Positions 490 to 62,125 of a stretch of DNA of 64,000 bases are shown in pieces. Position numbers and translations under genes: made by a program. The notes beneath the pieces are model-generated. The model ran no database searches, had not been told where the DNA came from, and saw nothing but the letters and a program-made list of their open reading frames with translations. The DNA comes from Synechococcus sp. CS-1332 (GTDB taxonomy: Bacteria; Cyanobacteriota; Cyanobacteriia; PCC-6307; Cyanobiaceae), in contig NZ_JAHLYP010000052.1 of NCBI RefSeq assembly GCF_025127995.1, positions 62,001 to 126,000 of the forward strand, written 5' to 3'. Numbering within the stretch: the first letter of the stretch is position 1; each line of letters opens with the position of its first letter.

Positions 490-2379
490 ATGCCTGACCA
501 TCTTCGGGATGAACTGCTGCTGCAGGGTGCCGATCGCCATCCCAACGTCATCCAGGAGCTGCTCGGCGAGCTGTACGACTCCTTCTCCGGGGTCCGGGAA
601 GGCAGGGTGGCGGACTACATCCCCGAGCTGGCCAACGCCTGCCCCGACGATTTCGGCATCGTCATCGCCACGTCGGGTGGGCGGATCTATGAGATCGGTG
701 ACACCAGGAAGGAGTTCACGATTCAGTCGATCTCCAAGCCCTTCATCTATGCACTGGCCCTGAAGACGCTCTCGTTCGACTTCATGGCCAGCAAGATCGA
801 TGTGGAGCCCTCAGGGGAAGCCTTCAACGCCATCAGCCTCGACCCTGACTCGGGCAAGCCCCGCAATCCGATGATCAATGCCGGGGCGATCGCCGCCTCC
901 GCCCAGATCTGTGACGCCGATCCCACCGGCGCTGTTGAGCTGCTGCTGGAGTATTTCGAGGAACTGGCCGGTCGGCGCCTGACGATCAATGAAGACGTCT
1001 ACCGCTCGGAGAAGGAAACGGGACACCGCAACCGCGCCATCGGCCACCTGCTGCGCAACTTCAACATCATCGAGTCCGACCCTGAACCGGCCCTCGATCT
1101 CTATTTCCGCCAGTGCGCCATCTCCGTCACCTGTCGTGATCTGGCCGTGATGGCCTCCACCCTGGCCTGCCAGGGCCGCAATCCCTTCACCGGTGGCCAG
1201 CCCCTGTCGTACGACATCACCGTTCGGGTGTTGGCCCTGATGGGCACCTGCGGCATGTATGACTTCGCGGGCCAGTGGCTCCATGACGTCGGCATTCCGG
1301 CCAAGAGCGGGGTCGCTGGAGGGGTGATGGCGGTGATCCCGGGACGGCTCGGCATCGCCACCTACTCGCCTCCCTTGGACAACTTCGGCAACAGTGTCCG
1401 GGGAGTGGCGGTCTGCCGCCAGTTATCGGTGGGGGTGGGCCTGAGTCTGTTCAATCAGTACTACCAGGCCGATGCCACCATCCGCCGTTCCTACCAGGGG
1501 TCCCAGCGAAAATCGCGACGCTGGCGCAGTGATCGGGAGCTGGAGATCCTGGCGCCCCACCGGGATGAGGTGCGCATCATCCACGTGCAGGGAGTGCTCG
1601 ATTTCGGCGGCATCGAGCAGCTGGCCTCCGAACTGGTGCGGCTCAGCAACGACGTGCGCATCCTCATCCTCGATCTGGCCCACGTGACCGAGTGCCCGAT
1701 GGAGTCCTCAGGCCTGCTGGATCGTCAGCTCTGTTCGATCGAGGACGATGGCGTTGAGATCCTCCTCTCCCGCGCCGGTCGGCTGCCCCTGGTCTCCAAG
1801 CCCGACTGGAACATCACCGATCGGATCGACGCCTACGAGCATCTGGATTCGGCCCTCGAAGCCGCCGAAGAACTGCTCCTGACGTGGTATGACCCGCCGA
1901 CCGAAGTGGGTGCCAGTGACGCGGGCGACGACGTCGGAGAGCAGGGCTTTCTGGCGCCCCTGGGCGTGGAGCATCGGCGGATCCTGGTGGATTGCATGGC
2001 CAGGCGAGCGTTTGTGGCCGGTGATTTCGTGATCCGTCGCGGGGATCCCGGTGACGAGCTGTTCCTGGTGCGTTCCGGCTCCTTCGACATCGCCCTCGAC
2101 ATCAAGACCGGTGATGGGGTCTCCCACTCCACCCGGCTGGCCACCTTCGGCCCGGGGCTCTGCTTCGGGGAGATCGGCTTCGTGGCCCAGACACCCCGCA
2201 CCGCCGACATCATCGCCACCCGGCCCGGCGAGTGCTGGGTGTTGCACCGCAGCGACTTCGAGGCCCTCAGTGCCAGCCATCCTGACGTGGTGATCGCCCT
2301 GCTCAAGGCCCTCACCTGCGACATCGGCGCCAAGCTCAGCCAGACAAGCGTCCAGCTGACGCTGATGGAGCACTACTGA
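490..2379 (+). CDS. glsA: Glutaminase A fused to STAS and cyclic-nucleotide-binding domains
   Basis: The protein has 629 residues, about twice a plain bacterial glutaminase. Residues ~15-315 are a serine-dependent glutaminase that converts glutamine to glutamate and ammonia: the S-x-x-K pair is S80/K83 (QSISKPF), with NPMINAGAI and the FNAISL segment also present. Residues ~355-450 form a STAS domain ([13 protein letters not shown] ... LILDLAHV). Residues ~480-610 form a cNMP-binding domain whose phosphate-binding cassette reads [14 protein letters not shown], with the Glu and Arg expected in ligand-binding members. The fusion suggests cytoplasmic glutaminase activity gated by a cyclic nucleotide; that is inference. 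ATG at 490 gives the expected N-terminus. It may respond to the CHASE2 cyclases encoded downstream. Confidence 0.9.
886..893. repeat. HIP1 octamer (GCGATCGC), one of many
   Basis: HIP1 palindromes typical of cyanobacterial genomes occur here and at 2771, 3446, 11418, 18091, 29586, 39796 and 44216 among others. Confidence 0.8.
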
Positions 2380-5136: not shown

Positions 5137-6843
5137 TCAGAAGCGGACATTCACCTTGGTGTAGAGCCCCTGCCCCAGTAGCCAGTCATTCCAGACGCCG
5201 AGGTTGTCGGTGGTGGAGAAGGGTTTGGCCCAGCCCAGCTCCACCGTCCAGTTGTTGTTGGCCAGCCAGCGCAGCAGCACCCCGCCGGCCCCCACCGTGT
5301 CGCCGAAGGAGCCACCGTTGAAGTTGGTGCGGATGCCTCCGGCGCCCATGAAGGGCACGAGCTGGAGGGCACTGGTCTTGCCGTTCCAGAAGGTCCACAC
5401 CGCTTCGGTGCTGGCCAGCCAGCCGCTGTCGCCGCTGATCAGCTGGCCGGGGAGACCACGCAGCCCCACATCGGAACCGAGGGTGAACTGCATCGAGGAG
5501 GTCAGCGGGGCAAAGGCCAGCTGGGCGGCGGTGCGCAGGTTGATCTGCCAGCGGGGGGTCACGGTCCAGGAGCCGGAGAGGAAGCCCCCGATGGCGGTGG
5601 CCCCACCGATGGCGATGCCTGCTTCCGCCAGTTGCTGGCGCTGGATGGCCGGGGTCGCTGCCGTGACGCCCTGCAGCAGGTAGGCACTGCCGTTCCAACC
5701 CAGATGGCGGCCGGTGCCGCTGCCGTTGACCCCGAAGCGCAGGTAGCCGCCGGCAGGGCTGCGAACACTTTCGGGCACGCCGGCCGGCAGGGCGGTGTCC
5801 TGCTCATAGGTGGTGCTGCGGCTGTTGCTGTAGCCGGCGAAGAGGCTCCAGCGCTGGCTGAGGGATTCGCGGAACACCCATTCGAACTGGGCCAGGGCCT
5901 GGAACTGGCTGGTGGAGAACCCATCCACCGGCGACGGCAGCTCCACCAGGTTGCGGCGGCTGAAACCGAAACCACCGGTGAGGCTGAAGGTGTCGCTGAA
6001 GGGGTAGGTGTAACTCACCGAGGCGATGGCCGCCCCCAGTTCGGGGGTGTCGGTGGCATCAAGCTCGCCGTAGATCAGCAGGGTGTCCCCTCGCCGCAGC
6101 AGGCTGGGTTTGAGCAGCGTGGCCACGGCCCGGAACTCGCCGGAGCCGCTGGTGCCGTCGTTGCGCAGCGCCAGATCCCCTTGCCAGGGTTCGCGGGCCG
6201 GCTCCACCGCGACCCGGAACACCCCTTCGGAGGGATCACTGCCCAACCGTGCCAGGGTGCCCCGCACGCTCTCGATGCCTGGTTGCCGCTTGAGCAGTTG
6301 TAGTTGCTGCTCCACCGTGGACAGCCGCAGGATCTGGCCGCGCAGGGGGCGCAACAGCCGCTCGACGCGACGGTTCAGCCGGGGATCGCCGCCGGACACC
6401 TGGATCCCGACGACACGACCCTCCACCACATCGAGATAGCCCGGGGCCGGCTCGCCCACCACGTAGACGCGGCTGCTGACATACCCATCGAAGACAAGCC
6501 GGGTGCTGAGGGCGACGGCGCAGGCCTTGAGCCGCTCCAGCGGATCGGCGATCCTGCTGCACTCGGCCAGGATCTCGCGCACCTGAAGAGGGCTGTAGAG
6601 CGTCAGCCCGCGGATCTCCGGCAGTGGGCCCGCTGGCTGCTGGGTCCCGGGAGCAGGTGTGGGAGGGGGTGGCCTGGTGCCATCGGGCTCGGACACCGGC
6701 GTTTCCAGGGGCCGGATGTCGACGGGGGCGGGCGGTAGTGGTTCGGAGGGGACCGGCCGCTCAAACTGACGCGAAGGGCCTGGCAACCGGATCGGGCCGT
6801 CCTGCAGGGGAGGGGCCACCAACTGGGCGAGAAGGAGCAGCAT
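5137..6843 (-). CDS. TpsB/FhaC/ShlB-family outer-membrane transporter of a two-partner secretion system
   Basis: The 568-residue protein has a hydrophobic N-terminus (MLLLLAQLVAPPL), a proline-rich linker (~20-70), a POTRA-type region (~80-235; YSPLQVREILAEC, YVSSRVYV) and a C-terminal 16-strand-type beta-barrel ending in aromatic residues (KVNVRF). The GLRGLPG motif (~465-471) matches the conserved arginine-containing barrel loop of the TpsB/BamA superfamily. It should sit in the outer membrane and export its TpsA partner, which is the divergent gene starting 85 bp away. The signal peptide is short for the family, so the true start could be upstream of 6843 in the shared intergenic region. 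Family assignment is firm; pairing with the adjacent TpsA is inferred from position. Confidence 0.93.
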   Translation of the reverse strand: MLLLLAQLVAPPLQDGPIRLPGPSRQFERPVPSEPLPPAPVDIRPLETPVSEPDGTRPPPPTPAPGTQQPAGPLPEIRGLTLYSPLQVREILAECSRIADPLERLKACAVALSTRLVFDGYVSSRVYVVGEPAPGYLDVVEGRVVGIQVSGGDPRLNRRVERLLRPLRGQILRLSTVEQQLQLLKRQPGIESVRGTLARLGSDPSEGVFRVAVEPAREPWQGDLALRNDGTSGSGEFRAVATLLKPSLLRRGDTLLIYGELDATDTPELGAAIASVSYTYPFSDTFSLTGGFGFSRRNLVELPSPVDGFSTSQFQALAQFEWVFRESLSQRWSLFAGYSNSRSTTYEQDTALPAGVPESVRSPAGGYLRFGVNGSGTGRHLGWNGSAYLLQGVTAATPAIQRQQLAEAGIAIGGATAIGGFLSGSWTVTPRWQINLRTAAQLAFAPLTSSMQFTLGSDVGLRGLPGQLISGDSGWLASTEAVWTFWNGKTSALQLVPFMGAGGIRTNFNGGSFGDTVGAGGVLLRWLANNNWTVELGWAKPFSTTDNLGVWNDWLLGQGLYTKVNVRF

Positions 6844-6928: not shown

Positions 6929-9900
6929 GTGTCTGATGGCAAAGGGATTGGTTCTAATGTTTTCGCCTGGAAAACTTACCCACCCATCAGCGTTGTGGGC
7001 AGGAATTTGAGTAGCAACAGATACCAATGTCCCAGTGAGTTGGCCCGGAAGGGCTGGTCGGGTTCGTCTCCTGTCCTGAAATCCACGCGTTGGCTCGCCC
7101 CGCTGAGGCTTGTCGCTCTGCTGGGGCTGGCGACCACGCCTGTCGCCGCCGGCGAGATCTCCGCGACTGGTGGTCCCCTGGGGCTGGGCAGCGTCGTGAA
7201 TGGCCGTCCAGGAGGCAGTTGCTTCGGCGGTGCCTGTGCGATCCAGGGGGGCACCTCCGCCGGGGCCAATCTCTTTCACCGCTTCTCCGCCTTCGATACC
7301 CGCGGTGGCATCACCGGCGTCAGCCTCGACGTGGCGGGCCATCGCAACGTCATGGTGGGCGTCACCCATCCCCTCGGCAGCTTCATCGATAAGGCCATAA
7401 CCCTGAGCGGTCCGGCCAACCTCGTCTGGCTCTCACCGGGGGGAATCCGGTTCAGTGGTTCCGGCACCTTCAACAATGTTCAGCAACTCAACCTGACCAC
7501 CGCCACCGGCCTGCGGGTGGGAGAGGGTCGTTTTGATGCGAACGGCACCACGGCCGCGGCCGCCGCCTCCCTGGCTGGAGCGCCCTTCCTGGGCCTGTCC
7601 GGGCTCAGCACCGACCCGTCCACCCTGAGCCAGCTTGGTCTTACCGCCCAGGGGGACCTGGCCATCGAGGGCGGCCTGCTCACCGTGGAGGGCGGATTGC
7701 TGCTGGATGCCCAGGGAGGCCACGTTCTGCTGGGGGGATCACGGCTTCAGGCCCCCGGGGGTCAGGTGGCCCTCCAGGGCCAGCAGGTGGCGCTTCAGAA
7801 CAGCACGGTGGATGTTTCCAACCCGGCCGGCTCTGGCGGAAGCATCAGCCTCACCGGGAAACAGGTTTCTCTGGCCGGATCCAGCCTTCTGGCGACAGGC
7901 CGCACGGCGGGAGGTGTCGTGCAGGTCGGTGCCGACCCCCTGGGGACCGCGACCGCGTTGACCACCACGGTGGATGCGTCCTCCGTTCTCCGGGCTGATG
8001 CCACCACGGCTGGCCGTGGCGGACGCCTCTTGGTCCTTGGCAAGGACGTGGCTGAAGTGCATGGTGCCGTCAGCGCCAGGGGTGGTCCTCAGGGAGGCGA
8101 TGGGGGGTTCGTAGAGACCTCGGCGGGTTGGCTGGCACTCTCCACAGCGCCGGATCTCTCGGCACCCAGGGGGCGAGGTGGAACCTGGCTGATCGATCCC
8201 CGCGACATCGAGATCGTCCCCTCCGGCACTGGGGGTGGCTCGCCTCCCGGAGGCACCTCGGTGGGTCCTCCCGGCTCTCCGTCGCGTATCGATGTCGGGC
8301 TCATCAACACGGCCCTCAATAGCGGGCAGACGGTGATCGTGGACACGACCGATCCCGTGGGCACCCAGCCGGGGACCATTTCCCTGCTGGCCTCGGTCGA
8401 GAAAACGGCTGGTGCGAACGCCAGCCTGGATTTGAGGGCCGACGGCAACATCCTGATCGACGTTCCGGGTGTGGACCCAGTCGCCTTCTCGAACACCTCC
8501 ACGCTGGGACGTCTGGATGTCGATCTCTGGTATCAGAAAACAGCTGATGCCTCCACACCTGCGGGTTCGATCAGCTGGCAGAAGGGCGCGGTTGATATCA
8601 ACACCGGCACGCTCAAAACCTTTCAGGGGGCATCCCGTATTGATGGCAACATCGAACTCACTGGTGCCGTTGAGCCCTTCAAACTTCTTTCGGGCACGGT
8701 TCGCACCGGAGAGTTTGGTTGGAGTCCAACCAGTCTGGGGGAGGTTCAGCTCTCCCTGTTTGGCAGCCCGAAACCTGCGACTCTGGATATCTCCAGGCGT
8801 TACGTTCAAGGTCCCGGTCGCACCGTCACAGCCTTTGCCACGTCACTTCTGAAAATTGGTCCTTCAGCCCAGAGCAGCCTGATCGACGGTGCCATTTTCA
8901 GGGATGCCACGCCGATCATCACGACCTTCATCCGAGTTGCTGATGGTGCCACCCTCGCCCTGAACCAGGCGACCATCAATGGTTCCAATCTGGCCGTTGA
9001 TAACGGGGCGCAGCTGCTTCTGTCGGGATCCAACCAGGTGACGGGCCTTGGCGGTGCCGGATCGATTCTGATCGCTCCCAACAGTACGTTGAATCTGCAG
9101 AGTTCGACCATTTCCCCGGGCACTTCGGTTGTTCTGCAGGGCAATGGTTCGGCCAGGCTGTTGATTGACAGTGCCACGTTCAGGAATGATGGAACCCTCC
9201 AGGGCTCCGGTGAGATTGAGGTGGGTGCCGGCGGTCTGGGGACGTTCACCAATGGCGGCTCGCCTGCGCCAGGGGCACCGGTGGCGGTGCTTGATCCCAT
9301 TGGATCGCTCCGCATTCGTGCCGCAAGTCTGCGGCTGGAGGCCAACAGCCAGCTCCTTTTCGATCTCTCCACCGACGATCAGCTCTCTGTTTTCGGTGAC
9401 ACGGTTCTTGGCGGTGGCTTGGAGGTGGTCTCTCCGCCGATCGTCGGAGTCCCCACCCCCTATGAGTTGATCCGGGCCCGCAGCATCACCGGTGCCTTCG
9501 CGCCAGGCCAGATCTTCCTGCCGATCGGTTTTGATCTTCAGGGTGTGGTGACGACAGGCGATCCGCAGTTGCCGGTCTCCTTAGGCGGAAGCCTGGCGGC
9601 AACCCTTCCCCCGCCCTTGGCACCCATCGACCCGCCCTTCACTCCCACGCCAATCCCGCCCCAGACGGTGACGGCACCCCCGGACCCGACACCGTCTTCT
9701 CCGCCGAGCCCCGCGCTCCAACTGCCCGATCTGGGGTTTCGCATCTTTCCCTCCGCCCAGACGACTCCCTTAGGTTCGAATCTCATCGCCAGCCGGCGCG
9801 GGGTGGGTTCTGATTCTCTGGCGGTGAACCTCTCGGAAGCTGATTTCAGTCTGGCCGGGGGCGCCAGCACCACACCGGGCTCCCTCAGCATCACCACCTC

Positions 9901-11248
9901 CACCCTTGCTTCGGACAAGGTGACGGCCGCGATTTCGGATGGGGAGCAACGGCGCACGGAGGACGTGAAAAGGACGCTTGGGGATGTGGGCAAGGCGGCA
10001 GATTCCAACGGAACCCTTCGCCTTGAGGAATTGCAACGACTGCTCAGCAAGGCCTCCCAGAAGGGGGACAAGGACGACGAGCGCTTCAACCCGGCGGTGC
10101 TGATGATCTCCTTCACCGAACAGAAGCAGGTGGCGGGCCAGGAGACGTCCGTTGCGGGTCAGGAGGCGAAGGCCCCAGTTGACACCGAGAAGAAACCGAC
10201 CAATTCATTCCTTGATCTGATCCTGCTCAGCCGCAAGGGTGAGCCGTTCGGCAAGCGGGTTGAGCTGTCACGGGAGCGCTTCGGCGACCAGCTGCGGGCG
10301 CTTTACCGGCAACTGGCCCGCCTCGAACCTCTGCAGGTGGAGAACCCTGAGTCCCCGTCCAGGCAGATCCACCGGGCCCTGATCGCGCCCGTGGCCGAGG
10401 AGCTCAAGGCCAAGGGCATCACCACCCTGGTGATCGCCGCCGATCGCGGCCTGCAGGGCCTTCCTTTCGCGGCCCTGCATGACGGCGCCAGCTATTTCGG
10501 TGACCAATTCGGCTTCTCGATCACCCCGTCCCTCAACCTCACGTCCTTCGGCCCTCCCCGGCTGACAAGGGGTCGGATGCTGGCCGCTGGGGCCTCGGAG
10601 TTCGAAGGACTCAGCCCCCTCCCCCTGGTGCCCGAGGAGCTGGCCGGCATCCCGGATGGGGTCGGCATCGACCGCTTCCTGAACAAGGCGTTCACCCCGG
10701 AGGTGCTGCTGAGCCAGGCGGCCGACCCGCGTTACGAGCGGCTGCACGTGGCCACCCATGCGGAGTTCATGCCAGGCGGACCGTCGCAGGCACGCATCTT
10801 CACTGGAACCGGCTCCGTCAGCCTTCAGGAGTTCGCCGGCCTGCGGCAGCAACGCAGTGGCAGTCCGCTTGAACTGTTCGTGCTGAGCGCCTGTCGCACG
10901 GCCCTGGGGGATAGCGACAGTGAGCTCGGTTTTGCAGGACTGGCCCTGCAGGCGGGATCACGCAGTGCGATCGGCACCCTCTGGTACGTGGACGATGTCG
11001 CCACCTCCGCCTATTTTCTGCAGCTCTATCGCTATCTCGATCAGGGCGTCCAGAAAGCCGATGCCCTGCGGGCCACCCGGCAGGCGATGGCCACTGGCAA
11101 AGTGCGGCTTGAGGGCGATAAGGTCATCGGGTCCGATGGTGTCCCCCTACTCACCGAATTGACACCTTCCCAGCGGCGCCGCATCGCGTCAGGCATGGCC
11201 CACCCTTACTTCTGGGCCGGGGTTCAGCTGATTGGAACCCCCTGGTGA
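6929..11248 (+). CDS. TpsA exoprotein: filamentous-haemagglutinin N-domain with C-terminal CHAT (caspase-like) domain
   Basis: The protein has 1439 residues. A long N-terminal extension leads into a signal sequence ([17 protein letters not shown], cleavage near residue 75). The TPS secretion domain follows (NLFHRFSAFDT, LVWLSPGGIRFSGSG; ~75-220), then repetitive beta-helix-like sequence to ~885, a proline-rich linker (~894-935), a charged segment, and a CHAT domain (~1150-1439). The CHAT His/Cys pair is present: H1277 in LHVATHAEF and C1322 in VLSACRTALG. TpsA proteins are normally exported by the partner TpsB, here the divergent gene. A secreted or surface-displayed caspase-like protease or adhesin is inferred. 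The start is the GTG at 6929; a TTG near 7006 would give a shorter leader. Confidence 0.92.
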   Translation: MSDGKGIGSNVFAWKTYPPISVVGRNLSSNRYQCPSELARKGWSGSSPVLKSTRWLAPLRLVALLGLATTPVAAGEISATGGPLGLGSVVNGRPGGSCFGGACAIQGGTSAGANLFHRFSAFDTRGGITGVSLDVAGHRNVMVGVTHPLGSFIDKAITLSGPANLVWLSPGGIRFSGSGTFNNVQQLNLTTATGLRVGEGRFDANGTTAAAAASLAGAPFLGLSGLSTDPSTLSQLGLTAQGDLAIEGGLLTVEGGLLLDAQGGHVLLGGSRLQAPGGQVALQGQQVALQNSTVDVSNPAGSGGSISLTGKQVSLAGSSLLATGRTAGGVVQVGADPLGTATALTTTVDASSVLRADATTAGRGGRLLVLGKDVAEVHGAVSARGGPQGGDGGFVETSAGWLALSTAPDLSAPRGRGGTWLIDPRDIEIVPSGTGGGSPPGGTSVGPPGSPSRIDVGLINTALNSGQTVIVDTTDPVGTQPGTISLLASVEKTAGANASLDLRADGNILIDVPGVDPVAFSNTSTLGRLDVDLWYQKTADASTPAGSISWQKGAVDINTGTLKTFQGASRIDGNIELTGAVEPFKLLSGTVRTGEFGWSPTSLGEVQLSLFGSPKPATLDISRRYVQGPGRTVTAFATSLLKIGPSAQSSLIDGAIFRDATPIITTFIRVADGATLALNQATINGSNLAVDNGAQLLLSGSNQVTGLGGAGSILIAPNSTLNLQSSTISPGTSVVLQGNGSARLLIDSATFRNDGTLQGSGEIEVGAGGLGTFTNGGSPAPGAPVAVLDPIGSLRIRAASLRLEANSQLLFDLSTDDQLSVFGDTVLGGGLEVVSPPIVGVPTPYELIRARSITGAFAPGQIFLPIGFDLQGVVTTGDPQLPVSLGGSLAATLPPPLAPIDPPFTPTPIPPQTVTAPPDPTPSSPPSPALQLPDLGFRIFPSAQTTPLGSNLIASRRGVGSDSLAVNLSEADFSLAGGASTTPGSLSITTSTLASDKVTAAISDGEQRRTEDVKRTLGDVGKAADSNGTLRLEELQRLLSKASQKGDKDDERFNPAVLMISFTEQKQVAGQETSVAGQEAKAPVDTEKKPTNSFLDLILLSRKGEPFGKRVELSRERFGDQLRALYRQLARLEPLQVENPESPSRQIHRALIAPVAEELKAKGITTLVIAADRGLQGLPFAALHDGASYFGDQFGFSITPSLNLTSFGPPRLTRGRMLAAGASEFEGLSPLPLVPEELAGIPDGVGIDRFLNKAFTPEVLLSQAADPRYERLHVATHAEFMPGGPSQARIFTGTGSVSLQEFAGLRQQRSGSPLELFVLSACRTALGDSDSELGFAGLALQAGSRSAIGTLWYVDDVATSAYFLQLYRYLDQGVQKADALRATRQAMATGKVRLEGDKVIGSDGVPLLTELTPSQRRRIASGMAHPYFWAGVQLIGTPW

Positions 11249-11272: not shown

Positions 11273-11698
11273 TTGCTTCCTTCCCCCTTCCTGTCCCACC
11301 TGTGGTGGGTCTCCACGGTCCACCCAGTTCCTCATTCAGTGCCTGATCTTCCAGCGGTCTTCAACGTCTTTCTGATGCTGGCGATGGCCCATTTCCTCGG
11401 GGATTTCGGGCTCCAAAGCGATCGCATGGCGAGGGAGAAGTGTCCAGGTTGCGGGGTGACCCTTGGGTGGGGCTGGTGGCTCACCTCCCATGCCGCCATC
11501 CATGGCTTTCTGGTGGGCATGGTCACCCAATCTCCCATTTTGGGTGTGGCAGAATGGGGTGTGCATCTGTTGATCGACTTCGGCAAATGCCGACGTCTGT
11601 GGACTCTGTCCATTGATCAGGCGCTTCACATCATCTGCAAGTTCCTCTGGGCCTGGCTGGCGATTCGGCAGGCCTCCACACCACTCTGGTTCCAATGA
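11273..11698 (+). CDS. DUF3307-type membrane protein
   Basis: The 141-residue hydrophobic protein matches the DUF3307 pattern: AHFLGDFGLQSDRMAREK near residues 38-55, then two conserved His sites (SHAAIHG) and the HLLIDFGK motif, all in or beside predicted membrane helices. The family is of unknown function and is often found in mobile or accessory settings. The given start is TTG at 11273; a GTG at 11339 would remove ~22 residues and still keep the first helix. Its stop overlaps the start of the DUF928 gene (ATGA, 11695-11698), so the two are probably translationally coupled. Confidence 0.72.
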   Translation: MLPSPFLSHLWWVSTVHPVPHSVPDLPAVFNVFLMLAMAHFLGDFGLQSDRMAREKCPGCGVTLGWGWWLTSHAAIHGFLVGMVTQSPILGVAEWGVHLLIDFGKCRRLWTLSIDQALHIICKFLWAWLAIRQASTPLWFQ

Positions 11699-12420
11699 AG
11701 AGAAAGGTTGCTGGTTCCCCCATGGCTGTTCCTATGCGTTTCCGCCCCCGCGGCGCTGCGCGACGTTTCCGCTTCCCGTTGCTGGCCGCTTTCCTTCTGA
11801 CCCTGGTCCCATTGGCGGCGATCGAGCCGCCGCAGGCCCAGGCCCAGAGTGAGCTGCGTAAAAGCTTCCCAGGCAGGCGGGTGGGTGGAGGAACCCGCGG
11901 TGAGTGCGCCAGTCGCCTTCTGGCCCACCTGGTGCCCTCCAGCAGTGTCTTCGCCCCCGGCAAGGCCCGCTACCTCGGTGTGCTCGAAGGCCCCAGTGCT
12001 GCCCCCAGTCCCCTGGAGATCACCTTCCGACCGCTGAGTGATCGCGGCACCGTGGACGGATCGATGTCCTCGGGCCAACGCCGGGTGCTGCCGGCCTCCT
12101 CACCGGGCATCACCCTCCTGACCCTGCCCCCAGTGAAGGTGCCGACGATGTGGGAGTCGAGCTACATCTGCCCAGGGGCGGCGGCCACCTCCACCCCTGC
12201 TGATCCGCTCAACTTCGTGGCCGCGGACTCGCCGCCGGCCCTGAGCCTGCTGGTCACGGAAGCCTCCAAGGAGGACGCTGCCGTCCAGGCTTCCCTGGCC
12301 AAACTGCGCCAGTCCTGTGGCTCCAGCGTGTCCAGCGTGGAAGTGGGCGCCAGCTTCGGCTTGTCTGATCTGATCACGGCCCAGTGGCCAGAGCGGCTTC
12401 CAGTGCGCTGTCCCGCCTGA
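11695..12420 (+). CDS. DUF928 family secreted protein
   Basis: This 241-residue protein has a twin-arginine-rich basic start, a hydrophobic segment (LLAAFLLTLVPLAAI) and an Ala-x-Ala cleavage region near residue 50. It then has the DUF928 opening (PGRRVGGGTRGEC ... LLAHLVPSSS) and an extended beta-rich body. A real start at the downstream ATG (11722, MAVPMRF) is possible. DUF928 proteins are largely cyanobacterial, periplasmic and uncharacterised. From general familiarity (not searched), they often lie near CHAT and CHASE2 genes, as here. The gene is convergent with the CHASE2 cyclase and overlaps it by 47 bp (12374-12420). Confidence 0.75.
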   Translation: MKRKVAGSPMAVPMRFRPRGAARRFRFPLLAAFLLTLVPLAAIEPPQAQAQSELRKSFPGRRVGGGTRGECASRLLAHLVPSSSVFAPGKARYLGVLEGPSAAPSPLEITFRPLSDRGTVDGSMSSGQRRVLPASSPGITLLTLPPVKVPTMWESSYICPGAAATSTPADPLNFVAADSPPALSLLVTEASKEDAAVQASLAKLRQSCGSSVSSVEVGASFGLSDLITAQWPERLPVRCPA

Positions 12421-14326
12421 GGCCGCCCCGCAGCTCCCAGATGCGCAGGGGTTCGGTGCGTCCCTTGACGCTCAACGCGCCCCAGTCGAGCCACTCCAGG
12501 GGCAGTCCCTTGGGCAGCAGATCCAGGGTGCTGGAGGACACCAGCACCCGGCAGAGATTGTCCTGACGATCCTTGTCGATGCTTTCCAGCCGCGAGGCGC
12601 AGTTCACGGCATCGCCGATCACCGCGTACTCCAGCCGCTCGCTGCTGCCCATCGATCCCGCCAGAACAGCGCCGGAATGGACGCCGACGCGCAGGGCCAT
12701 GGCCGGAAGCCCCTCCAGCTCCAGTTCTTCATTGAGGCTGGTCACGGCCCGTTGGATGGCCAGGGCGGCATCGATGGCGGCCTTGGCGTCGGCCTGCTCG
12801 CCACTGCTCAGGGGGGCGCCGAAAACCGCCAGCAGGCCATCACCGGTGAACTTGTTGACCATGCCTCCCCGGCGTGTGATCGCGGGGACGAACAGGGCCA
12901 TGCCCCGGTTCAGCCAGTCGAGCAGCTCCCCGGGGGTGAGCCGTTCCGACACGCTCGTGAACGAGCAGGTGTCCGACATCAGCACGGTGACCGGCAGCTG
13001 GCGCCCCTCGAAGCGCCCGTCGCTGAGCAGCCCATCCCGCTGGTTCCAGAGCTGGCGGGCGACGGCCGGGGAGGTGGTCTGGCCCAGCAGCCGTTCGATC
13101 TGCTGGCGTTGTTTCTGGCTGGAGGCGCCCCGGCGCACCCAGGCTGCACCCGCCATGGCGATCAGCCCGGTCAGAGGCATGCTCAACCCGACCCAGAGAT
13201 AGTTGTAGAGCAGCAGCACGGCGCCGCCGACCAGCAGGGAGGCCACCAGCACCACGACCATCACGCTGCGGCGCAGTAGTCGGAAGGCTTCCCCCAGCAC
13301 GATCCCCAGCACCACGGCCAGCACTTCGGCGACGCGCTCCACCCAGCCAGGCAGGGTCCGCAGTCGCCGCGGGTCCCCGGCCACGTAGCGGTCCATCAGG
13401 CCGGCCAGGCGATGGGCATGGATCTCGACGCCGGGCACCAGCAGCTGTTTCGCCCCGAGGGCGGATCGGGTCTGGGGCACCGGAAACAGGTCCCGCAGGC
13501 TGGGAGCGGTGGTCCCGATCAGCACGATGTGGCCCCGGATCTGGTCCCTGGGGATCGGCCTGCGGCCGAGCACATCCTGGAGATTCCAGAGGTGGAAGCT
13601 GCCGAGCTGGTGAAAGGAGAGCATCTTCTGGAAACCCGCGGCATCCAGCTGGTCGTAGCCCCCCGACGCCGGCTCCAGCCAGGGGCCCGGTTCGGTGCCC
13701 TTCTCAAGCCGCTGCCGCAGGCTCCGCTGGCCCTTGCCCACCTCCAGCAGGCGCAGGGGCAGGGACACGGTGGCTTCGTCCTGGCCGGCCACATGCACCA
13801 GATCGCGGCGGATCACCCCATCGGCATCCAGCACCAGATCGTTGAAACCGCGCCGGTCGGCGGGCGTACCCGGCACCGGGCCGATGGCTTCGGCCACGTT
13901 GAAGATCGAAACGAGGCGGGGATTACTGCGGAAGCGCTCGCGCAGGCAGGCCTGGTCAGGGCCGACGCCCTGGTCACGGTAGATGTCGAGGCCGATCGCC
14001 ACCGCCCCTGCGGCACTCAGCCGGTCGATGGCTTCGCACAGCACCTTGTCGTCGATGGGGAACCCGTAGGTGGCGAGGTCCGATTCGTCGATGCCGATGA
14101 TCGTGATCGCTTTGTCCGTTCCGGGCGGAGCCTGGCGCAGGCTGGTGATCAGGTCGTAGAGCAGCAGGTTGAGGGTTTCGTTGATGGGGCTGCGCTGCAG
14201 GGCCAGCAGCAGCAGCCCCGCGGCCGCGTAGGGCACGAGCGAGCGGACGCCATCCCCCAGATGGTGCAACCCCAGACGTGCCAGCAGGGAGGAGAGCGCT
14301 GATCCGGGCCCTTTCTTGCTGTCCAT
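12374..14326 (-). CDS. CHASE2-domain class III adenylate/guanylate cyclase (cyclase 1)
   Basis: The 650-residue protein has an N-terminal helix (~30-44), an extracytoplasmic CHASE2 domain (~45-330; IIGIDESDLATYG), three further helices (~335-415) and a C-terminal catalytic domain (~455-625). Metal-binding Asp residues (VLMSDTCSFT, NKFTGDGLLAVFG), the purine-site Lys and the transition-state Asn/Arg (VNCASRLE) are present. The second purine-specifying position reads Ala (EYAVIGD) where cyanobacterial adenylate cyclases usually have Thr or Asp, so the nucleotide product is uncertain. The start was chosen at 14326 because this ATG overlaps the stop of the upstream channel gene by one base (TGATG); the longer frame upstream only runs through that gene. 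Confidence 0.93.
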   Translation of the reverse strand: MDSKKGPGSALSSLLARLGLHHLGDGVRSLVPYAAAGLLLLALQRSPINETLNLLLYDLITSLRQAPPGTDKAITIIGIDESDLATYGFPIDDKVLCEAIDRLSAAGAVAIGLDIYRDQGVGPDQACLRERFRSNPRLVSIFNVAEAIGPVPGTPADRRGFNDLVLDADGVIRRDLVHVAGQDEATVSLPLRLLEVGKGQRSLRQRLEKGTEPGPWLEPASGGYDQLDAAGFQKMLSFHQLGSFHLWNLQDVLGRRPIPRDQIRGHIVLIGTTAPSLRDLFPVPQTRSALGAKQLLVPGVEIHAHRLAGLMDRYVAGDPRRLRTLPGWVERVAEVLAVVLGIVLGEAFRLLRRSVMVVVLVASLLVGGAVLLLYNYLWVGLSMPLTGLIAMAGAAWVRRGASSQKQRQQIERLLGQTTSPAVARQLWNQRDGLLSDGRFEGRQLPVTVLMSDTCSFTSVSERLTPGELLDWLNRGMALFVPAITRRGGMVNKFTGDGLLAVFGAPLSSGEQADAKAAIDAALAIQRAVTSLNEELELEGLPAMALRVGVHSGAVLAGSMGSSERLEYAVIGDAVNCASRLESIDKDRQDNLCRVLVSSSTLDLLPKGLPLEWLDWGALSVKGRTEPLRIWELRGGLRRDSALEAALATGP

Positions 14327-15807
14327 CAGGTGCCTTTGAAGGCGAAGAAGAGCCGTTTCATCGTGTCCAGCAGAGCATTGGAGCGTTCCGTGTGCTGTTC
14401 GCGATCCAGGTTTTTCAGTTCCGCCTGCCGCTCCTGAACCATGGCGGCGAAGCGCTCCAGCAGGTAGGGGTTCTCGTCCAGCAGGCCCTTGATGCTCTCC
14501 CGGTCGACCTCCAGCAGCAGGCATTCCTTGGTGGCCCGCACCGTGGCGCTGCGTGGCGCGTCCAGGAAGAGGGTCATCTCACCGAACACCTCCCCAGGCC
14601 CCAGCTCACGCACGGCCACGGTGTGGCCCGGCTCCAGCTCCTTGAGGATCTCCACGGTCCCCCGCAGCACATGGAACATCGAGCGGCCTTCGGCCCCCTC
14701 CTGCACCATCGCCTCACCGGGGCCGTAGGCCACCAGGTGGCTGCCTTCGACCAGCGTCTCCAGTTGCTCGCCGCTCAGCTCGGTGAAGATTCCCACGCTG
14801 GCCAGGGTCTGGCAGCACTGCTGGGGGGACGGCCGGTCGAGCCGCTGGGGCCGGTCCCGGGTGCGACGCGGTTGCAACTCCCGCACCGGGAAGGGGATGC
14901 TCTGCCCCTCACGGGCCAGGGCGTACCAGATCTGCTCCAGGAGATCACTGCGCAGGTCGCCGATGGCCCCATCCCCCAATTCCCGCTGCCACACCTGCAG
15001 TTCGTAGGCGATGGCGCTGTCCTGGAACTCCATGACCCGGATGTGGGGGAGCGGTTCGCGCAGCACCTTCGGATGCTGCAGTACCACCTTCTCGAGCAGG
15101 GCCCTGGCCTGGGCCGGCGGCAGGTCGTAGTCGAGGCCGACGCTGAACCGGTTGCTGACGGCCCCGGAGCGCCCCAGATTCCGGAGCACCCTCGCGGTGA
15201 CGAGGCTGTTGGGGACCACCACCAGCTGGCCGTCCATGTTGCGGAGCATGGTGTCTCGCCAGCTCACCCGCACCACCACCCCGCGCACCCCCTGATCCAG
15301 CTCGAGGAAGTCACCCTCGGTGAAGTCGTCCCCCAACTGAAGCTCCAGACCCGCGAACAGGTCCTTGAGGGACTCCTGGGCCGCCAGGCCGATCACGGCG
15401 GTGAGCACGGCGGAGGTGGTCACCAGCCCCACCAGATCGAACCGCGCCGACTGCCGCACCAGCACCACCGTGGCCAGGGCGCCGCTGCCGAGCGTGAGCA
15501 GCTGCATCAGCAGCTGCGGTGGAGGCCGCCACAGCCCCAGGTGGGCCGGGACCTCCAGGGTGGCCCAGAGGGCGATGAGGATGGCGGCGTAGGTGAGCAG
15601 CAGGTCGTCGGTGAGCAGCACCCACACCCGATAGGCCGGCAGCACCCCCTGCAGCGGCAGGGAACTCAGCACCGCCCAGGCGGCGATGGCCAGCAGCGGC
15701 AACCGCAGCGGCACGGCCGGCAGGTGCCTGAGGCGGCCGAGGCGAGCCAGCACCAGCAGCCCGGCCGTGGCAGCCAGGGCGCTGATCCAGATCTGCAGCA
15801 GGGCCAA
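14326..15807 (-). CDS. MscS-family channel with C-terminal cyclic-nucleotide-binding domain
   Basis: The protein has 493 residues. About five hydrophobic segments fill residues 1-155; the MscS pore and beta domain follow (~130-300; AAQESLKDLFAGLELQLGDDF, VVVPNSLV). A cNMP-binding domain occupies ~340-455 with an intact phosphate cassette (FGEMTLFLDAPRSATV), then a coiled-coil tail. This is the architecture of bacterial cyclic-nucleotide-gated MscS-like channels, which sit in the inner membrane and open with ligand rather than only with tension. It is followed directly by a CHASE2 cyclase with a one-base stop/start overlap, a strong hint that the cyclase makes its ligand. Confidence 0.93.
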   Translation of the reverse strand: MALLQIWISALAATAGLLVLARLGRLRHLPAVPLRLPLLAIAAWAVLSSLPLQGVLPAYRVWVLLTDDLLLTYAAILIALWATLEVPAHLGLWRPPPQLLMQLLTLGSGALATVVLVRQSARFDLVGLVTTSAVLTAVIGLAAQESLKDLFAGLELQLGDDFTEGDFLELDQGVRGVVVRVSWRDTMLRNMDGQLVVVPNSLVTARVLRNLGRSGAVSNRFSVGLDYDLPPAQARALLEKVVLQHPKVLREPLPHIRVMEFQDSAIAYELQVWQRELGDGAIGDLRSDLLEQIWYALAREGQSIPFPVRELQPRRTRDRPQRLDRPSPQQCCQTLASVGIFTELSGEQLETLVEGSHLVAYGPGEAMVQEGAEGRSMFHVLRGTVEILKELEPGHTVAVRELGPGEVFGEMTLFLDAPRSATVRATKECLLLEVDRESIKGLLDENPYLLERFAAMVQERQAELKNLDREQHTERSNALLDTMKRLFFAFKGT

Positions 15808-18595: not shown

Positions 18596-20494
18596 ATGGC
18601 ACGCTCCCGAACCTTCCGCGTTCTCGTGGTGGCCGTGCTGGCCTGGGTGGGGGTCAGCTCCGGCTGGCCGGGGCCCCGGATGAGGGTCTGGGAACGGGGG
18701 GTGGAGCAGCAACTGCTGCTGCTGCGCGGTCCGCGGCGCCCCCCGGCGAAGGTGGTGCTGGTCACGGTCGACGACGCCACGCTCCAGCAGGGCGACTGGT
18801 TCGAGGAGGAGGGTCGCATCCCGGAATGGGCCAGGGGCGTCGGCAGCCTGCCCTGGCCCCGCGCCACCTACGGCATGGTGGCGGAGAAGCTGCTGCAGGC
18901 CGGCGCCAAGGCGGTGGCCGTGAATGTGGTCTTCGAGGGGCCCAGCGGCAAGGGCGCGGCCGATGACGAGGCCCTGGAGCTGCGCTTGCGGCGTTACCCC
19001 GGCCGGGTCGCCCTGGCGGCGGAGATGCTCGAGTCCAACGACACCCAGGGGGCCGGCTCGCTCACCTTCGTGCGGCCGGAGCGCTTCCTGTCGGCGATCG
19101 GCGGCACCGGCGCCCTCGGGCTCACCAACGTCCTCGCCGGCACCTCCAGCGAGGCGAGCCGCCATCCGGAGGCTTACGCCAGCGGCGTGCTCCCCGCCCG
19201 GGGCGCCGAAGGCCACAGCGCCCTCTCCTCCACCCTGCTGCGGCTGGGGGGCCACCGCAGCCGCCAGGACGACCGGGCCAGCTCCCTCAACTTCTATGGC
19301 CCTGAGGGCAGCTTCCGGCGCCTGCCGGCCTGGGAAGTGCTCGACCCCGAGCGTTGGAAGACCCATCCCCTGCGCAAGGACCTGGCCGGTTCGGTGGTGC
19401 TGCTCGGCCCTGTCGTTGCCCAGGGGGCCGATGGCTACCCCACCCCCTTCGGCAGCCTGTCCGGGCTGGAGGTGCTGGCCACCGCCACGGCCAACTCGCT
19501 GCAGGGGGACGGCCTGCAGCCCTGGCCCCGCAGCGCGCCGGGACGGGCCCTGCTGGCCCTGCTGCCGCTGCTGATCGTGCTCGGGGCGGCCCGACGCTGG
19601 AGCGACCTGCGCTGGCGTCTCGCCCTGGTGGTTCTGGTGCTGGTCCTCCAGGGGGCCCTCGTCGCCGTGGCGCTGCAGCAGGCCAACCGCTGGCTGCCGC
19701 TGCTGGCGCCCTCCTCGGGCCTGGTCCTGCTGGGCCTGCTCTACGGCGGGGATGCCTACCTGCGGGAGGGGCAGGAGCGGCGGCGCCTGCGCCGCACCTT
19801 CGAGCGCTACGTGGCTCCGGGGGTGGTGGCGGAGATCCTCTCCGACCCGGAATCGGCCCAGGGCATTCTGCGCGGCCGGCTGCTGGAGGTGACTGTGCTG
19901 ATGACCGACATCAAGGGATTCACGGTCCTCACCAAGCAGCGCAGCGGCGAAGGCCAGAGCGAGCTGCACGTGCGCCAGCTCAACGAGTACCTCGGCGCCA
20001 TGGTGGAGGTGGTCATGGCCCATGGCGGCACCGTCGACAAGTTCATCGGCGATGCGGTGATGGCGGTGTTCGGATCACCGGTGAGCAGGGGGGTGGCCGA
20101 AGAGGCCAGCCAGGCGGTGCGCTGCGCCCTGGCGATGCGAGAAGCCCTGGCCGGCCTCAACGAGGACTGGAGCCGCCGCGGCATCGCCACGCTCGACAAC
20201 GGCATCGGCCTGGCCAGCGGCCAGGTGATGGTGGGCCAGATCGGCAGCCCCCGGCGGATGGAATTCACCGTGATCGGCGACACGGTCAACCTGTCGGCCC
20301 GGCTGGAGTCGGCCACCCGGAATGTGGACGCGGCGGTGGTGTGCGACGCCCAGACCGCCAACCTGATTCAGGCTGATGTGGGCCTCGACTCCCGCTCCCT
20401 GGGGGCCCAGCCCGTGAAGAGCCTGGGGGAGGTGGAGATCTTCACGGTGTCGCTCCGGGATCAGGCCTCCAGCTCAGGTCAGGCCTCCAGGTAA
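18596..20494 (+). CDS. CHASE2-domain class III adenylate/guanylate cyclase (cyclase 2)
   Basis: The protein has 632 residues. It has an N-terminal membrane helix (~8-24), a CHASE2 domain (~25-310; VVLVTVDDATLQQGDW), three helices (~315-385) and a cyclase domain (~425-600). All catalytic positions expected of an adenylate cyclase are present: Asp in VLMTDIKGFT and KFIGDAVMAVFG, Lys before FIGD, Thr in EFTVIGD, and Asn/Arg in VNLSARLE. It follows the FecR-CAP gene after 89 bp on the same strand. It converges with speA and overlaps it by 16 bp. Of the three cyclases here it is the most canonical cAMP producer. Confidence 0.94.
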   Translation: MARSRTFRVLVVAVLAWVGVSSGWPGPRMRVWERGVEQQLLLLRGPRRPPAKVVLVTVDDATLQQGDWFEEEGRIPEWARGVGSLPWPRATYGMVAEKLLQAGAKAVAVNVVFEGPSGKGAADDEALELRLRRYPGRVALAAEMLESNDTQGAGSLTFVRPERFLSAIGGTGALGLTNVLAGTSSEASRHPEAYASGVLPARGAEGHSALSSTLLRLGGHRSRQDDRASSLNFYGPEGSFRRLPAWEVLDPERWKTHPLRKDLAGSVVLLGPVVAQGADGYPTPFGSLSGLEVLATATANSLQGDGLQPWPRSAPGRALLALLPLLIVLGAARRWSDLRWRLALVVLVLVLQGALVAVALQQANRWLPLLAPSSGLVLLGLLYGGDAYLREGQERRRLRRTFERYVAPGVVAEILSDPESAQGILRGRLLEVTVLMTDIKGFTVLTKQRSGEGQSELHVRQLNEYLGAMVEVVMAHGGTVDKFIGDAVMAVFGSPVSRGVAEEASQAVRCALAMREALAGLNEDWSRRGIATLDNGIGLASGQVMVGQIGSPRRMEFTVIGDTVNLSARLESATRNVDAAVVCDAQTANLIQADVGLDSRSLGAQPVKSLGEVEIFTVSLRDQASSSGQASR

Positions 20495-23225: not shown

Positions 23226-23912
23226 ATGGCGCTGCTCAGGAGCTTCCGGCATCCCAGGACGCTGAGCCTGGCGGCCGGGGCCGTGATCGTTTCCGGCCTG
23301 ACCCTTGTCCTGCCGGGGGCCACGGCGGCTCCCCGGGTGCCCCGGGTGGTGGATGTGCCGTCGCGTCCGGCGTTCGTGAAGCCGCAGGCGTCACCAGAGC
23401 GCCCGGCCCTGGTGGGCCAGGTGCTCGGGCCTTCCACCGTGCTGCGCACAGAAAACCCCGGCCGGCTTCAGATCCTGCTGGCCGATGGGCGCAGCTTCCG
23501 GCTGGGGGGGAACGCCCAGCTGCGCATCGAGCCGAACCTGCTCGACCTGGTGCGCGGCCGGATCATCGCCTGGATCGATCCGGGATCGAAGGGCAGCACG
23601 CCGCTACGGGTCCGCACCCGGGTGGGCACCGCCTCGATCCAGGGCACCACGGTCTTCATCGAGGCCACCGCCGAGACGGTGCTGTTCTTGAGTTGGGAGG
23701 GGAAGGTGGAGGTGCGCGCCGCTGACGGCAGCGTGTACCGGCTGACCAGCGGCCAGCGTCTGGAGGCCACGCCCCAGGGATGGAAGGGCCCCCACCGGAT
23801 GGACGCGGCGGAGGCACGCCAGCGGCGGCGGAACAGCGAGCTGCTCAATGGCTTCCAGGCTCCGATGCAGACCCTGCCGGTGATCGAGCGCGAACTCGGG
23901 CTCGCCCCCTGA
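23226..23912 (+). CDS. FecR-like domain secreted protein, partner of cyclase 3
   Basis: The protein has 228 residues with a signal peptide (LSLAAGAVIVSGLTLVLPGATA, cleavage near residue 34). A FecR domain spans ~60-185: LQILLADGRSFRLGGNAQLRI, LVRGRIIAWIDPGS, VRTRVGTASIQGTTVFIE, LSWEGKVEVRAADGSVYRL. It is a different subtype from the two FecR-like proteins at 16679-18506 and lacks their cysteines. The stop overlaps the cyclase start by one base (TGATG at 23910-23914), so the two proteins are likely made in a fixed ratio and may act together in the periplasm. Confidence 0.86.
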   Translation: MALLRSFRHPRTLSLAAGAVIVSGLTLVLPGATAAPRVPRVVDVPSRPAFVKPQASPERPALVGQVLGPSTVLRTENPGRLQILLADGRSFRLGGNAQLRIEPNLLDLVRGRIIAWIDPGSKGSTPLRVRTRVGTASIQGTTVFIEATAETVLFLSWEGKVEVRAADGSVYRLTSGQRLEATPQGWKGPHRMDAAEARQRRRNSELLNGFQAPMQTLPVIERELGLAP

Positions 23913-25774
23913 TGCCCCCCTGGCCTGGCCTGGGGCGCCGGCTCTGGTGGCTGGCCCTGGCCGTCCCCCTGCTGGCAGGTCTGGACCGGGTGCCCCTCAC
24001 CCCCCTGGGGCAGGGGCCGAGGCTGCTCGACGACCAGCTCCTGCAGGCCTTCTTCCAGCTGCGGGGGGGGCGTTCCGCCCCAGCTGATCCGGTGATCCTG
24101 GCGATTGATGCCGACTCCCTGGAGCTGGGGGAGTTGCTGGCCCCTGGCGAACGCCAGGCGTCGCCGCTGTGGCGGCAGATGGGCCCCTGGCCCTGGCCGC
24201 GGGCCCTGCAGGCCCGGCTGGCGGCCCATGTGTTGGAGCAGGGGGCCACCCGGGTGCTGTTCAACATCGAGTACAGCGAGCCCAGCCGTTACGGGCCCGC
24301 CGATGACCGGGCCTTCGCCGCGATCCTCGCCCCCTGGCGCCAGCGGGTGCACCTGGCCGTCCACTACGACGTGCGCCAGGAGGGGGGGCTGGAGCAGAGC
24401 CGGCTGCGGCGGCCGATCCACCAGCTGGGTGCCCCCGGCCTGACCACCCTGCTCCAGTCCCCCCGAGGGGTGGTGGAGGCGGTGCCGGGCCTGGACTGGA
24501 TCCAGTCCAGGCTGGGCGCGTTCCCGCCCCCCTTGCCCAGGCCGATGGCCTTCCTGGCGCGTGCGGCGCCGCCGCCGGTGGCGCCGATGGGGCTCAACTA
24601 TCCCGGCCCCGCCGGCACCATGTCCCGGGTGCCGGCCTGGCGGCTGCTCGAACTGCCGGCGTCCACCTGGCGGGGACGCAGCGTGCTGATCGGCGTGACG
24701 GCCCCGGGTCTGGGGGACCTGCAGGAAACGCCCGTGGGCCCCATGGCCGGCACGGAGATCCAGGCGGTGGCCCTCGCCAACGTGCTGCAGAACCGGGGCC
24801 TGATCCGGCTGCCCCTGGCGGGGGACGCTCTGCTGCTGCTGGTCTGGGGAGGACTGATCGGTGTGCTGCTGCGGCGGCCCGCGAGTGCCGGCGGGACCCT
24901 GCAGCTGGCGCTGCTCCTGGCGGCGACGGTGCTGCTCACCGGCTGGGCCCTGTGGGCCGTGGCTCTGTTGCGCCTGCCCCTGGCCGCCCTGCTGCTGGCC
25001 CCCGTTGCCGGAGGTGGGGTGCGGGCCGTGGGGCAGGGGCTGGCGGAGAGCCGGGAGCGGGCCTACCTGCACCAGGTGCTGAGCCGGCGGGTCTCCCCCA
25101 CCCTGCTGCGCGACATCCTGCGCAGCCCAGGGCCGGTGTGGAACCAGGCGGTGGGCAGCCGGGCCCGCTGCGCCGTGCTGTTCAGTGACCTGGTGGGGTT
25201 CACGCCCCTGAGTGCCGTGCTGGAGCCGGCCGAGCTGTTCGCCCTGCTGAACCGCTACTTCGAGGCGATGGCCGCGGCGGTGCTGGAGCAGGAGGGACTG
25301 CTCGACAAGTTCATCGGCGACGCCGTGATGGCGGAGTTCGGGGTGCCCCGCAGCCGTGGGGATGCCGAGGAGGCCAGGGCCGCGGTGCGGGCGGCCCTGG
25401 CGATGCAGGAACGGCTGGAGGCCCTGAACGCCGAGCTGGTCGCGGCGGGCACACCACCGTTGCGGCACGGGATCGGGCTCCATTTCGGCGAGGTGATCGC
25501 CGGCAACCTGGGCTCCTCCCAGCGCCTGGAGTTCACGGTGGTGGGGGCCAGCGTCAACGTGACCAGCCGCCTGGAGGGATTGACGCGACTCTTCCCCGAG
25601 CACCCGATCCTGATCAGCGGCGATCTGCTGGCGCTGCTGCCGGGGGAGCTGGCGGTGCTGCCGCTGGGGGGCCACGCCCTCAAGGGCTGGCCCGTGCCCC
25701 TGGAGGTGTATGCGCTGCAGGGGTTGCAGGCTGCGGCCGGTCCCAGCGAAACGGCGCCAGCAATTCGGGGCTAG
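23912..25774 (+). CDS. CHASE2-domain class III adenylate/guanylate cyclase (cyclase 3)
   Basis: The protein has 620 residues: an N-terminal helix (~9-24), a CHASE2 domain (~25-295; VILAIDADSLELGELLAPG), three helices (~300-375) and a cyclase domain (~405-580). Metal Asp residues (LFSDLVGFTPLS, KFIGDAVMAEFG), the Lys, Thr (EFTVVG) and Asn/Arg (VNVTSRLE) are kept. The usual GDTVN reads GASVN, a change next to the active site whose effect is unknown. The start at 23912 was chosen for the one-base overlap with the FecR stop and a membrane helix directly after it. The 3' end overlaps the convergent thiO gene by 95 bp. Confidence 0.93.
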   Translation: MPPWPGLGRRLWWLALAVPLLAGLDRVPLTPLGQGPRLLDDQLLQAFFQLRGGRSAPADPVILAIDADSLELGELLAPGERQASPLWRQMGPWPWPRALQARLAAHVLEQGATRVLFNIEYSEPSRYGPADDRAFAAILAPWRQRVHLAVHYDVRQEGGLEQSRLRRPIHQLGAPGLTTLLQSPRGVVEAVPGLDWIQSRLGAFPPPLPRPMAFLARAAPPPVAPMGLNYPGPAGTMSRVPAWRLLELPASTWRGRSVLIGVTAPGLGDLQETPVGPMAGTEIQAVALANVLQNRGLIRLPLAGDALLLLVWGGLIGVLLRRPASAGGTLQLALLLAATVLLTGWALWAVALLRLPLAALLLAPVAGGGVRAVGQGLAESRERAYLHQVLSRRVSPTLLRDILRSPGPVWNQAVGSRARCAVLFSDLVGFTPLSAVLEPAELFALLNRYFEAMAAAVLEQEGLLDKFIGDAVMAEFGVPRSRGDAEEARAAVRAALAMQERLEALNAELVAAGTPPLRHGIGLHFGEVIAGNLGSSQRLEFTVVGASVNVTSRLEGLTRLFPEHPILISGDLLALLPGELAVLPLGGHALKGWPVPLEVYALQGLQAAAGPSETAPAIRG

Positions 25775-61717: not shown

Positions 61718-62125
61718 ATGCCCTCCAACCTGCTTCAGCCCCTGAGGATCGCCGTTCTGGCGGCGGTCCTCGGCTCCACCGGTGTCGCCTTGGCCCAGAG
61801 CGGCCCCTCCGAAGCCGGACGGCCCACGCCGGCCCAGATGCAGAAGATCTTTCCCGAGCAGAAGCGGCTGGCGATCAGTGATCACCAGGCCCGTATCGCC
61901 ATCCTGCAGAGCGGCGAGCGCTGCCTGTCCGCCGCCGGCAGCAGCGAAGCCCTGCGTGCCTGCATGAAGCAGCAACGCGAAGCCAGCCAGCGCCAGCGGG
62001 AGCAGCATCGGGCGTCCATGAAGGCCCTGTTCGAGCGCAATGGCATCGCCATGCCCCAGTGGGGCAAAGGCGAGCGCAAAGGGAAATGGGGTGAGGGCCG
62101 GCCCGGCACCCCCGGGACGATCTGA
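61718..62125 (+). CDS. Small secreted helical protein of unknown function
   Basis: The ~135-residue protein has a signal peptide (LRIAVLAAVLGSTGVALA) and a charged helical body rich in Gln and Arg (SEALRACMKQQREASQRQRE). Two cysteines (GERCL, RACMK) could form a disulphide. The body is loosely reminiscent of Spy/CpxP-type periplasmic proteins, but no LTxxQ motif is seen, so this is only a suggestion. The start could also be at 61691. It follows the sensor kinase by 119 bp and converges with pgk (9-bp gap). Confidence 0.65.
   Translation: MPSNLLQPLRIAVLAAVLGSTGVALAQSGPSEAGRPTPAQMQKIFPEQKRLAISDHQARIAILQSGERCLSAAGSSEALRACMKQQREASQRQREQHRASMKALFERNGIAMPQWGKGERKGKWGEGRPGTPGTI

Follow-up and report, generated by a model that had tools for sequence, protein, structure and literature searches.

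A two-partner-secretion exoprotein of Synechococcus sp. CS-1332 that ends in a predicted CHAT protease, and its proposed role in the cell envelope

We have analysed a stretch of 64,000 nucleotides from Synechococcus sp. CS-1332 (positions 62,001 to 126,000 of contig NZ_JAHLYP010000052.1, hereafter the window) that contains a gene for a two-partner-secretion (TPS) exoprotein with a C-terminal CHAT domain (6929..11248 on the + strand; 1439 aa counted from the most upstream GTG). Related CHAT domains occur either fused to such an exoprotein or split off as a separate gene. Computation shows the domains and folds, an intact catalytic dyad and the partner TpsB, and it also shows that both forms have export signals, that fusion and fission have recurred and that constraint is strong. 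The reading we favour, with a confidence that falls just short of even, is that this is an extracytoplasmic CHAT protease of the cell envelope which is placed like the prodomain of FhaB and cuts its own TPS exoprotein.

Architecture of the exoprotein and its CHAT domain

An earlier note on this DNA had placed a TPS domain and a CHAT domain with His1277 and Cys1322 in one chain of 1439 residues, and this description has held. The frame is free of internal stops over its whole length and runs from an export signal through the TPS domain, a beta-rich stalk and a proline-rich linker to the CHAT domain (features are on the + strand unless stated otherwise). It is not a chance frame, since three congeners share 81-84% identity across nearly the full length of the protein and the ratio of nonsynonymous to synonymous substitution rates (dN/dS) is 0.09-0.25 over the TPS domain, stalk, linker and CHAT domain. 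The nearest relatives are found in Cyanobium, Synechococcus and Aphanothece. Uncertainty attaches to the true start, for which GTG or TTG codons at 6929, 6995, 7007 and 7040 are possible, with no ATG ahead of the signal peptide, and the first 26-38 residues may be untranslated. The predicted signal peptide region (7007..7150) ends ...TTPVAA^GE and would begin at TTG 7007 or TTG 7040, or at a GTG further upstream; this N-terminal Sec signal peptide has a heuristic score of 3.0, and nearly all fused relatives have one. A scan for promoters and terminators found nothing, and a PHROGs search gave no match.

The CHAT caspase-like domain (10355..11236, residues 1143-1436) is matched by PF12770 with an E-value of 2e-49 and 169 bits, against a curated cut-off of 24. 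Its predicted catalytic residues, His1277 (10757..10759) in an HVATHAEF motif and Cys1322 (10892..10894) in a VLSACRTALG motif, are the same in 44/44 relatives, and the mean column identity of the domain across genera is 56%. Structure prediction had been proposed in the earlier note as a check for a caspase fold, and an AlphaFold model of residues 1021-1439 (predicted local distance difference test, pLDDT, 84; predicted template modelling score, pTM, 0.85) shows such a fold: the best Foldseek match is Csx29/TPR-CHAT (7.6e-13), and separases, caspases, SAVED-CHAT and gingipain R are matched as well. A sequence search of the PDB with the CHAT profile gave no match. Pfam finds no TPR match in the protein, an association that the name of the CHAT family implies and that is not essential. 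Both the sequence and the model point to what is apparently an intact caspase-family protease.

The distribution of constraint along the chain is in line with this. Within the genus (Nei-Gojobori, six sequences) the CHAT domain is the most constrained part, with a mean identity of 0.93 and a dN/dS of 0.087, compared with 0.217 for the TPS domain, 0.253 for the middle and 0.208 for the linker region. That the lowest value of the chain falls on the CHAT domain favours a working enzyme, and is the opposite of what a polymorphic toxin would be expected to show. The middle of the chain, past the TPS-domain model (8219..9607), is the least conserved part and would, judging from its sequence, be a beta-rich stalk. 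It is followed by the linker (9608..9727, residues ~894-933), which has 18 prolines in 40 residues and agrees with the proline-rich joint between the domains described earlier, although the corresponding region is not proline-rich in every relative.

The TPS secretion domain (7238..7882, residues ~104-318) runs on into a beta-helical stalk. In the window protein it falls under the curated cut-offs, at 28.8 bits against 33.5 for PF05860 (E=1.4e-6) and 14 bits against 29.1 for TIGR01901. Of 28 aligned relatives, 18 match PF05860 at E<=0.01, the best at 3.2e-12, and a profile built from the TPS relatives picks EtpA in the PDB (5.7e-26). The best PDB matches of the AlphaFold model of the domain (pLDDT 90.9) are all TPS domains, namely EtpA (2e-7), HMW1 (3e-6), FHA, HxuA and HpmA. 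A TpsB transporter of the outer-membrane ShlB/FhaC type (5137..6843, - strand; PF03865 1.6e-11) adjoins the gene divergently and is the sole PF03865 (ShlB-family) match in the genome, where the exoprotein is in turn the sole match to the TPS profile. The best explanation of these sequence and model matches is that the protein is a TpsA exoprotein with predicted TpsB-dependent secretion. The TpsB start at 6843 is an ATG that overlaps an in-frame TGA, and its signal sequence, MLLLLAQLVAPPLQ, is short and without a basic residue.

Fused and separate CHAT genes in relatives

We compared 201 genomes from the family to which the source belongs, and counted as a close CHAT relative any match with an E-value below 1e-100; many of the genomes used in the analysis are drafts. 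Such relatives occur in 41/201 genomes and comprise, with the window included, 44 CHAT open reading frames (ORFs) at 41 loci, 28 of them lying within long frames that resemble exoproteins and the other 16 being short or standalone. Contig ends cut two of the 16, leaving 14 complete standalone loci. In 11 of these 14 the CHAT gene begins at -4, -1 or +4 relative to the stop of a long upstream ORF, and that ORF has a recognised TPS domain in eight of the 11. The overlap is of 4 bases in seven standalone loci, an arrangement typical of translational coupling.

The standalone CHATs open with a signal peptide of their own, as in L060 (MIRPARHWPSRYLVASLPLFLGLPVTTPVALA^AP), and likewise in L065, L069, L071 and others. 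Signal peptides were judged with a home-made score that combines the n-region, the hydrophobic core and the AXA motif. A signal peptide or N-terminal membrane anchor scoring >=2.4 is present in 23 of 24 complete standalone CHATs from the family and the phylum, whereas 36 of 37 cytoplasmic controls (AlaS, SpeA and glutaminase) score <=2.1 and one reaches the level of the standalone CHATs. The exception is L078, whose hydrophobic N-terminus is broken by an Asp residue and which may be a fused protein, though a short one. Programmed frameshifting between the split ORFs was set aside as an explanation, since the split CHATs have their own signal peptide.

On a tree of 66 CHAT domains, built by a quick method and with 19 weak forks, the fused and separate states change at least eight times, five of these changes being forced by the starred branches. 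Given these changes and the signal peptides on the standalone forms, protease and exoprotein have joined and parted repeatedly, with the predicted export of the protease kept throughout. Among the giant exoproteins (~3700-4400 aa), two have the CHAT domain fused (L050 4218-16874 + and L070 3883-14922 +) and one has it as a separate overlapping ORF (L061 5629-18744 -); with these versions included, the length of the stalk varies several-fold and that of the CHAT domain does not.

Across the phylum, a profile of this CHAT subfamily (E below 1e-30) finds members in 124 of 386 cyanobacterial genomes and 74 of 139 genera. Twenty loci were sampled, and their ORFs divide evenly, ten having the CHAT joined to a recognised TPS domain and ten being standalone with either a signal peptide or an N-terminal anchor. 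Fused and split forms alike, the CHAT domain very probably works outside the cytoplasm, as far as can be read from these sequences. The location outside the cytoplasm predicted in the earlier note thus gains independent support from the split relatives whose CHAT gene has its own signal peptide. Its premise that CHAT proteases are usually cytoplasmic provides a poor baseline here, given two TPR-CHAT proteins of the same genome with signal-peptide-like N-termini (L130 2518-6111 +, C21; L132 1-3054 -, C30), which suggest that exported CHATs may be common in Synechococcus sp. CS-1332.

In the open-access literature we found no paper that, for cyanobacteria, connects CHAT to hemagglutinin or two-partner secretion, and none that treats this CHAT subfamily or the TPS-CHAT architecture. 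The architecture itself must already be present in sequence databases; what is new here is the CHAT as a separate gene with an export signal, the constraint on the CHAT domain and its association with CHASE2 genes, which is taken up below.

Proposed processing of the exoprotein

A signal peptide is present on the split CHATs but a TPS domain is not, and they would therefore be expected to remain in the periplasm. If so, the simplest common place for the fused CHAT would be at the chain's periplasmic end, where the prodomain of FhaB is also placed. We infer that the protease is catalytically active, that it is positioned in the periplasm and that the exoprotein is its substrate, with its own exoprotein probably the most economical one. 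Under the mechanism we propose, Sec export would come first, and the TPS domain would then engage the neighbouring TpsB, so that the beta-helical stalk reaches the surface with its N-terminus leading. Lying behind a flexible proline-rich linker, the folded CHAT domain would stay at the periplasmic end or follow late, and would cut its own exoprotein in or near the linker, by which the stalk is matured or released. In the split relatives, the CHAT with its own signal peptide, apparently co-translated with the exoprotein, would cut in trans from the periplasm.

Among the closest parallels is the FhaB/FhaC system of Bordetella, with which the window protein shares a Sec signal, a TPS domain, a beta-helical stalk, a proline-rich region, an extra C-terminal part and a TpsB partner. 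The C-terminal prodomain of FhaB is retained and is processed by the separate proteases DegP, CtpA and SphB1 (PMC8263021). In the TPS-CHAT protein, by contrast, the C-terminal part is itself a predicted protease, and periplasmic retention is our proposal. A processing role has been proposed for caspase-like peptidase domains in secreted polymorphic toxins and in large surface proteins (PMC3482391), which supports the self-processing that we suggest.

Several points weigh against it. The signal peptides were judged by our own score and not by SignalP, the proline-rich linker is absent in many fused relatives, and a folded CHAT domain could cross TpsB late and act at the surface. Outside the family, moreover, standalone CHATs are mostly without a recognised TPS gene nearby, so the subfamily is not devoted solely to TPS processing and probably has roles beyond it.

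The CHAT proteases that are best characterised, Craspase and SAVED-CHAT, work inside cells, as does separase, their relative in eukaryotes. Csx29 of Craspase, the best structural match, and SAVED-CHAT share the CHAT fold and the His/Cys dyad with the protein described here, but they are cytoplasmic, activated by CRISPR or by nucleotides and accompanied by TPR or SAVED partners, whereas no TPR was found in the TPS-CHAT protein and it is predicted to be exported. HetF of Anabaena is likewise a cyanobacterial CHAT protein associated with the cell envelope; it has an N-terminal CHAT domain, one transmembrane segment and TPRs, is without a TPS domain, and has a role in cell division and heterocysts (PMC8406250). 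Foldseek also matches DdvA, a transmembrane anti-sigma factor (PDB 8rot; 1.8e-8), which is a membrane signalling protein and not a TPS protein; no open-access paper on this structure was found. Should our reading be correct, this protease clan would gain a role in the cyanobacterial cell envelope through a conserved CHAT subfamily that has export signals and is tied to TPS exoproteins, and these exoproteins would have a built-in route for their processing. The natural fused and split versions allow the same protease to be compared in cis and in trans, which makes the question testable.

CHASE2 cyclases, other possible roles and the surroundings of the locus

Downstream of the TPS-CHAT gene lie genes for a DUF3307 protein, an exported orphan, a CHASE2 cyclase, an MscS channel with a cyclic-nucleotide-monophosphate (cNMP)-binding domain, a FecR protein and two more CHASE2 cyclases. 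The first of these CHASE2 sensors with a class-III nucleotidyl cyclase domain (12374..14524, - strand; PF05226 8e-47, PF00211 1e-18) has counterparts near 26/44 family CHAT ORFs; the second and third lie at 18596..20494 and 23780..25774. These are the sole CHASE2 genes found in the genome, and all are within 19 kb of the TPS-CHAT gene. It may be that the exported CHAT makes a proteolytic signal, in the form of a cleaved peptide or receptor, which the neighbouring CHASE2 cyclases sense, and that the cyclic nucleotide they form acts on the adjacent cNMP-binding channel and glutaminase, a reading that we consider unlikely and that could hold together with self-processing. Consistent with such signalling, CHASE2 is found in 41/41 genomes with a close CHAT relative compared with 32/160 others (Fisher 5e-23, uncorrected for phylogeny and genome size), and wherever a CHAT locus and a CHASE2 gene fall on one contig, as they do in 38 cases, at most 19 kb separates them. 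In four genomes with small assemblies of 1.4-1.9 Mb (G056, G067, G166 and G190) the sole CHASE2 gene found adjoins TPS-CHAT, and SpeA and AlaS, which are neighbours of the locus in other genomes, are absent from it. Two distant genomes have CHAT-CHASE2 fusions close to CHATs with a signal peptide. The window locus is flanked by two cNMP-binding proteins, a glutaminase-STAS-cNMP-binding protein (490..2379) and the MscS channel (14326..15807, - strand), which are possible effectors of the nearby cyclases. On the other side, the basis of this reading is co-location and co-occurrence, 32 genomes have CHASE2 without this CHAT, and the ligands of CHASE2 are unknown (PMC10581220). The CHAT-CHASE2 association is strong; its meaning is what we infer. 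A wider picture can be drawn of a system in the cell envelope: a caspase-family protease, exported either as part of a TPS exoprotein or co-translated with it, and repeatedly joined to it and parted from it, would signal inward through CHASE2 cyclases to cyclic-nucleotide-binding effectors. Taken as a whole, this picture strikes us as improbable. If the link is functional, it would point to a source of the unknown CHASE2 signal.

There is also a small chance, in line with the surface enzyme of the earlier note, that TpsB exports the whole chain and that the CHAT domain has its substrates outside the cell, among proteins of the surface or the environment. The fused architecture with its TpsB and the presence of gingipain R among the structural matches would fit this, and extracellular clan-CD proteases exist, gingipain being one, but the split CHATs, with a signal peptide and no TPS domain, are expected to be periplasmic.

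The contact-dependent killing suggested by the earlier note is disfavoured, and we regard as very unlikely a toxin, polymorphic or of the contact-dependent inhibition (CDI) type, whose CHAT tip would pass into neighbouring cells and damage them. Delivery by TPS and a caspase-like enzymatic domain at the C-terminus are indeed shared with CdiA/CdiB and with polymorphic toxins, for which caspase-like toxin tips have been proposed (PMC3482391). However, the TPS-CHAT protein has no variable tip, its CHAT end being the most conserved part of the chain within the genus and well conserved across genera; the gene that follows it differs between relatives, with no constant immunity-like partner; and the same protease occurs as an independent gene with an export signal. 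Least probable of all is a CHAT domain that has no catalytic function and serves just as a folded plug or anchor. Such a domain at the C-terminus could keep the chain at TpsB, but neither His nor Cys varies in the 44 relatives, and a CHAT encoded by its own gene has no means of anchoring the exoprotein in cis.

A defence system was considered and rejected, as the PADLOC matches were confined to BovA, within the CHAT domain (5.7e-8), and to Pycsar cyclases, for the CHASE2 cyclase, with no further component. The exported orphan (h241, 241 aa; 11695..12420) has no Pfam match, and an assignment to DUF928 was dropped because PF06051 is without a match in the genome; the orphan lies near 22/44 family CHAT ORFs and recurs beside TPS-CHAT and the CHASE2 cyclase. 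In two distant cyanobacteria (L115 8456-16499 and L119 3309-9659) a signal-peptide CHAT lies near a DUF1822 gene and a CHAT-CHASE2 fusion, and the first of these loci also has a sigma-70 region-4 protein.

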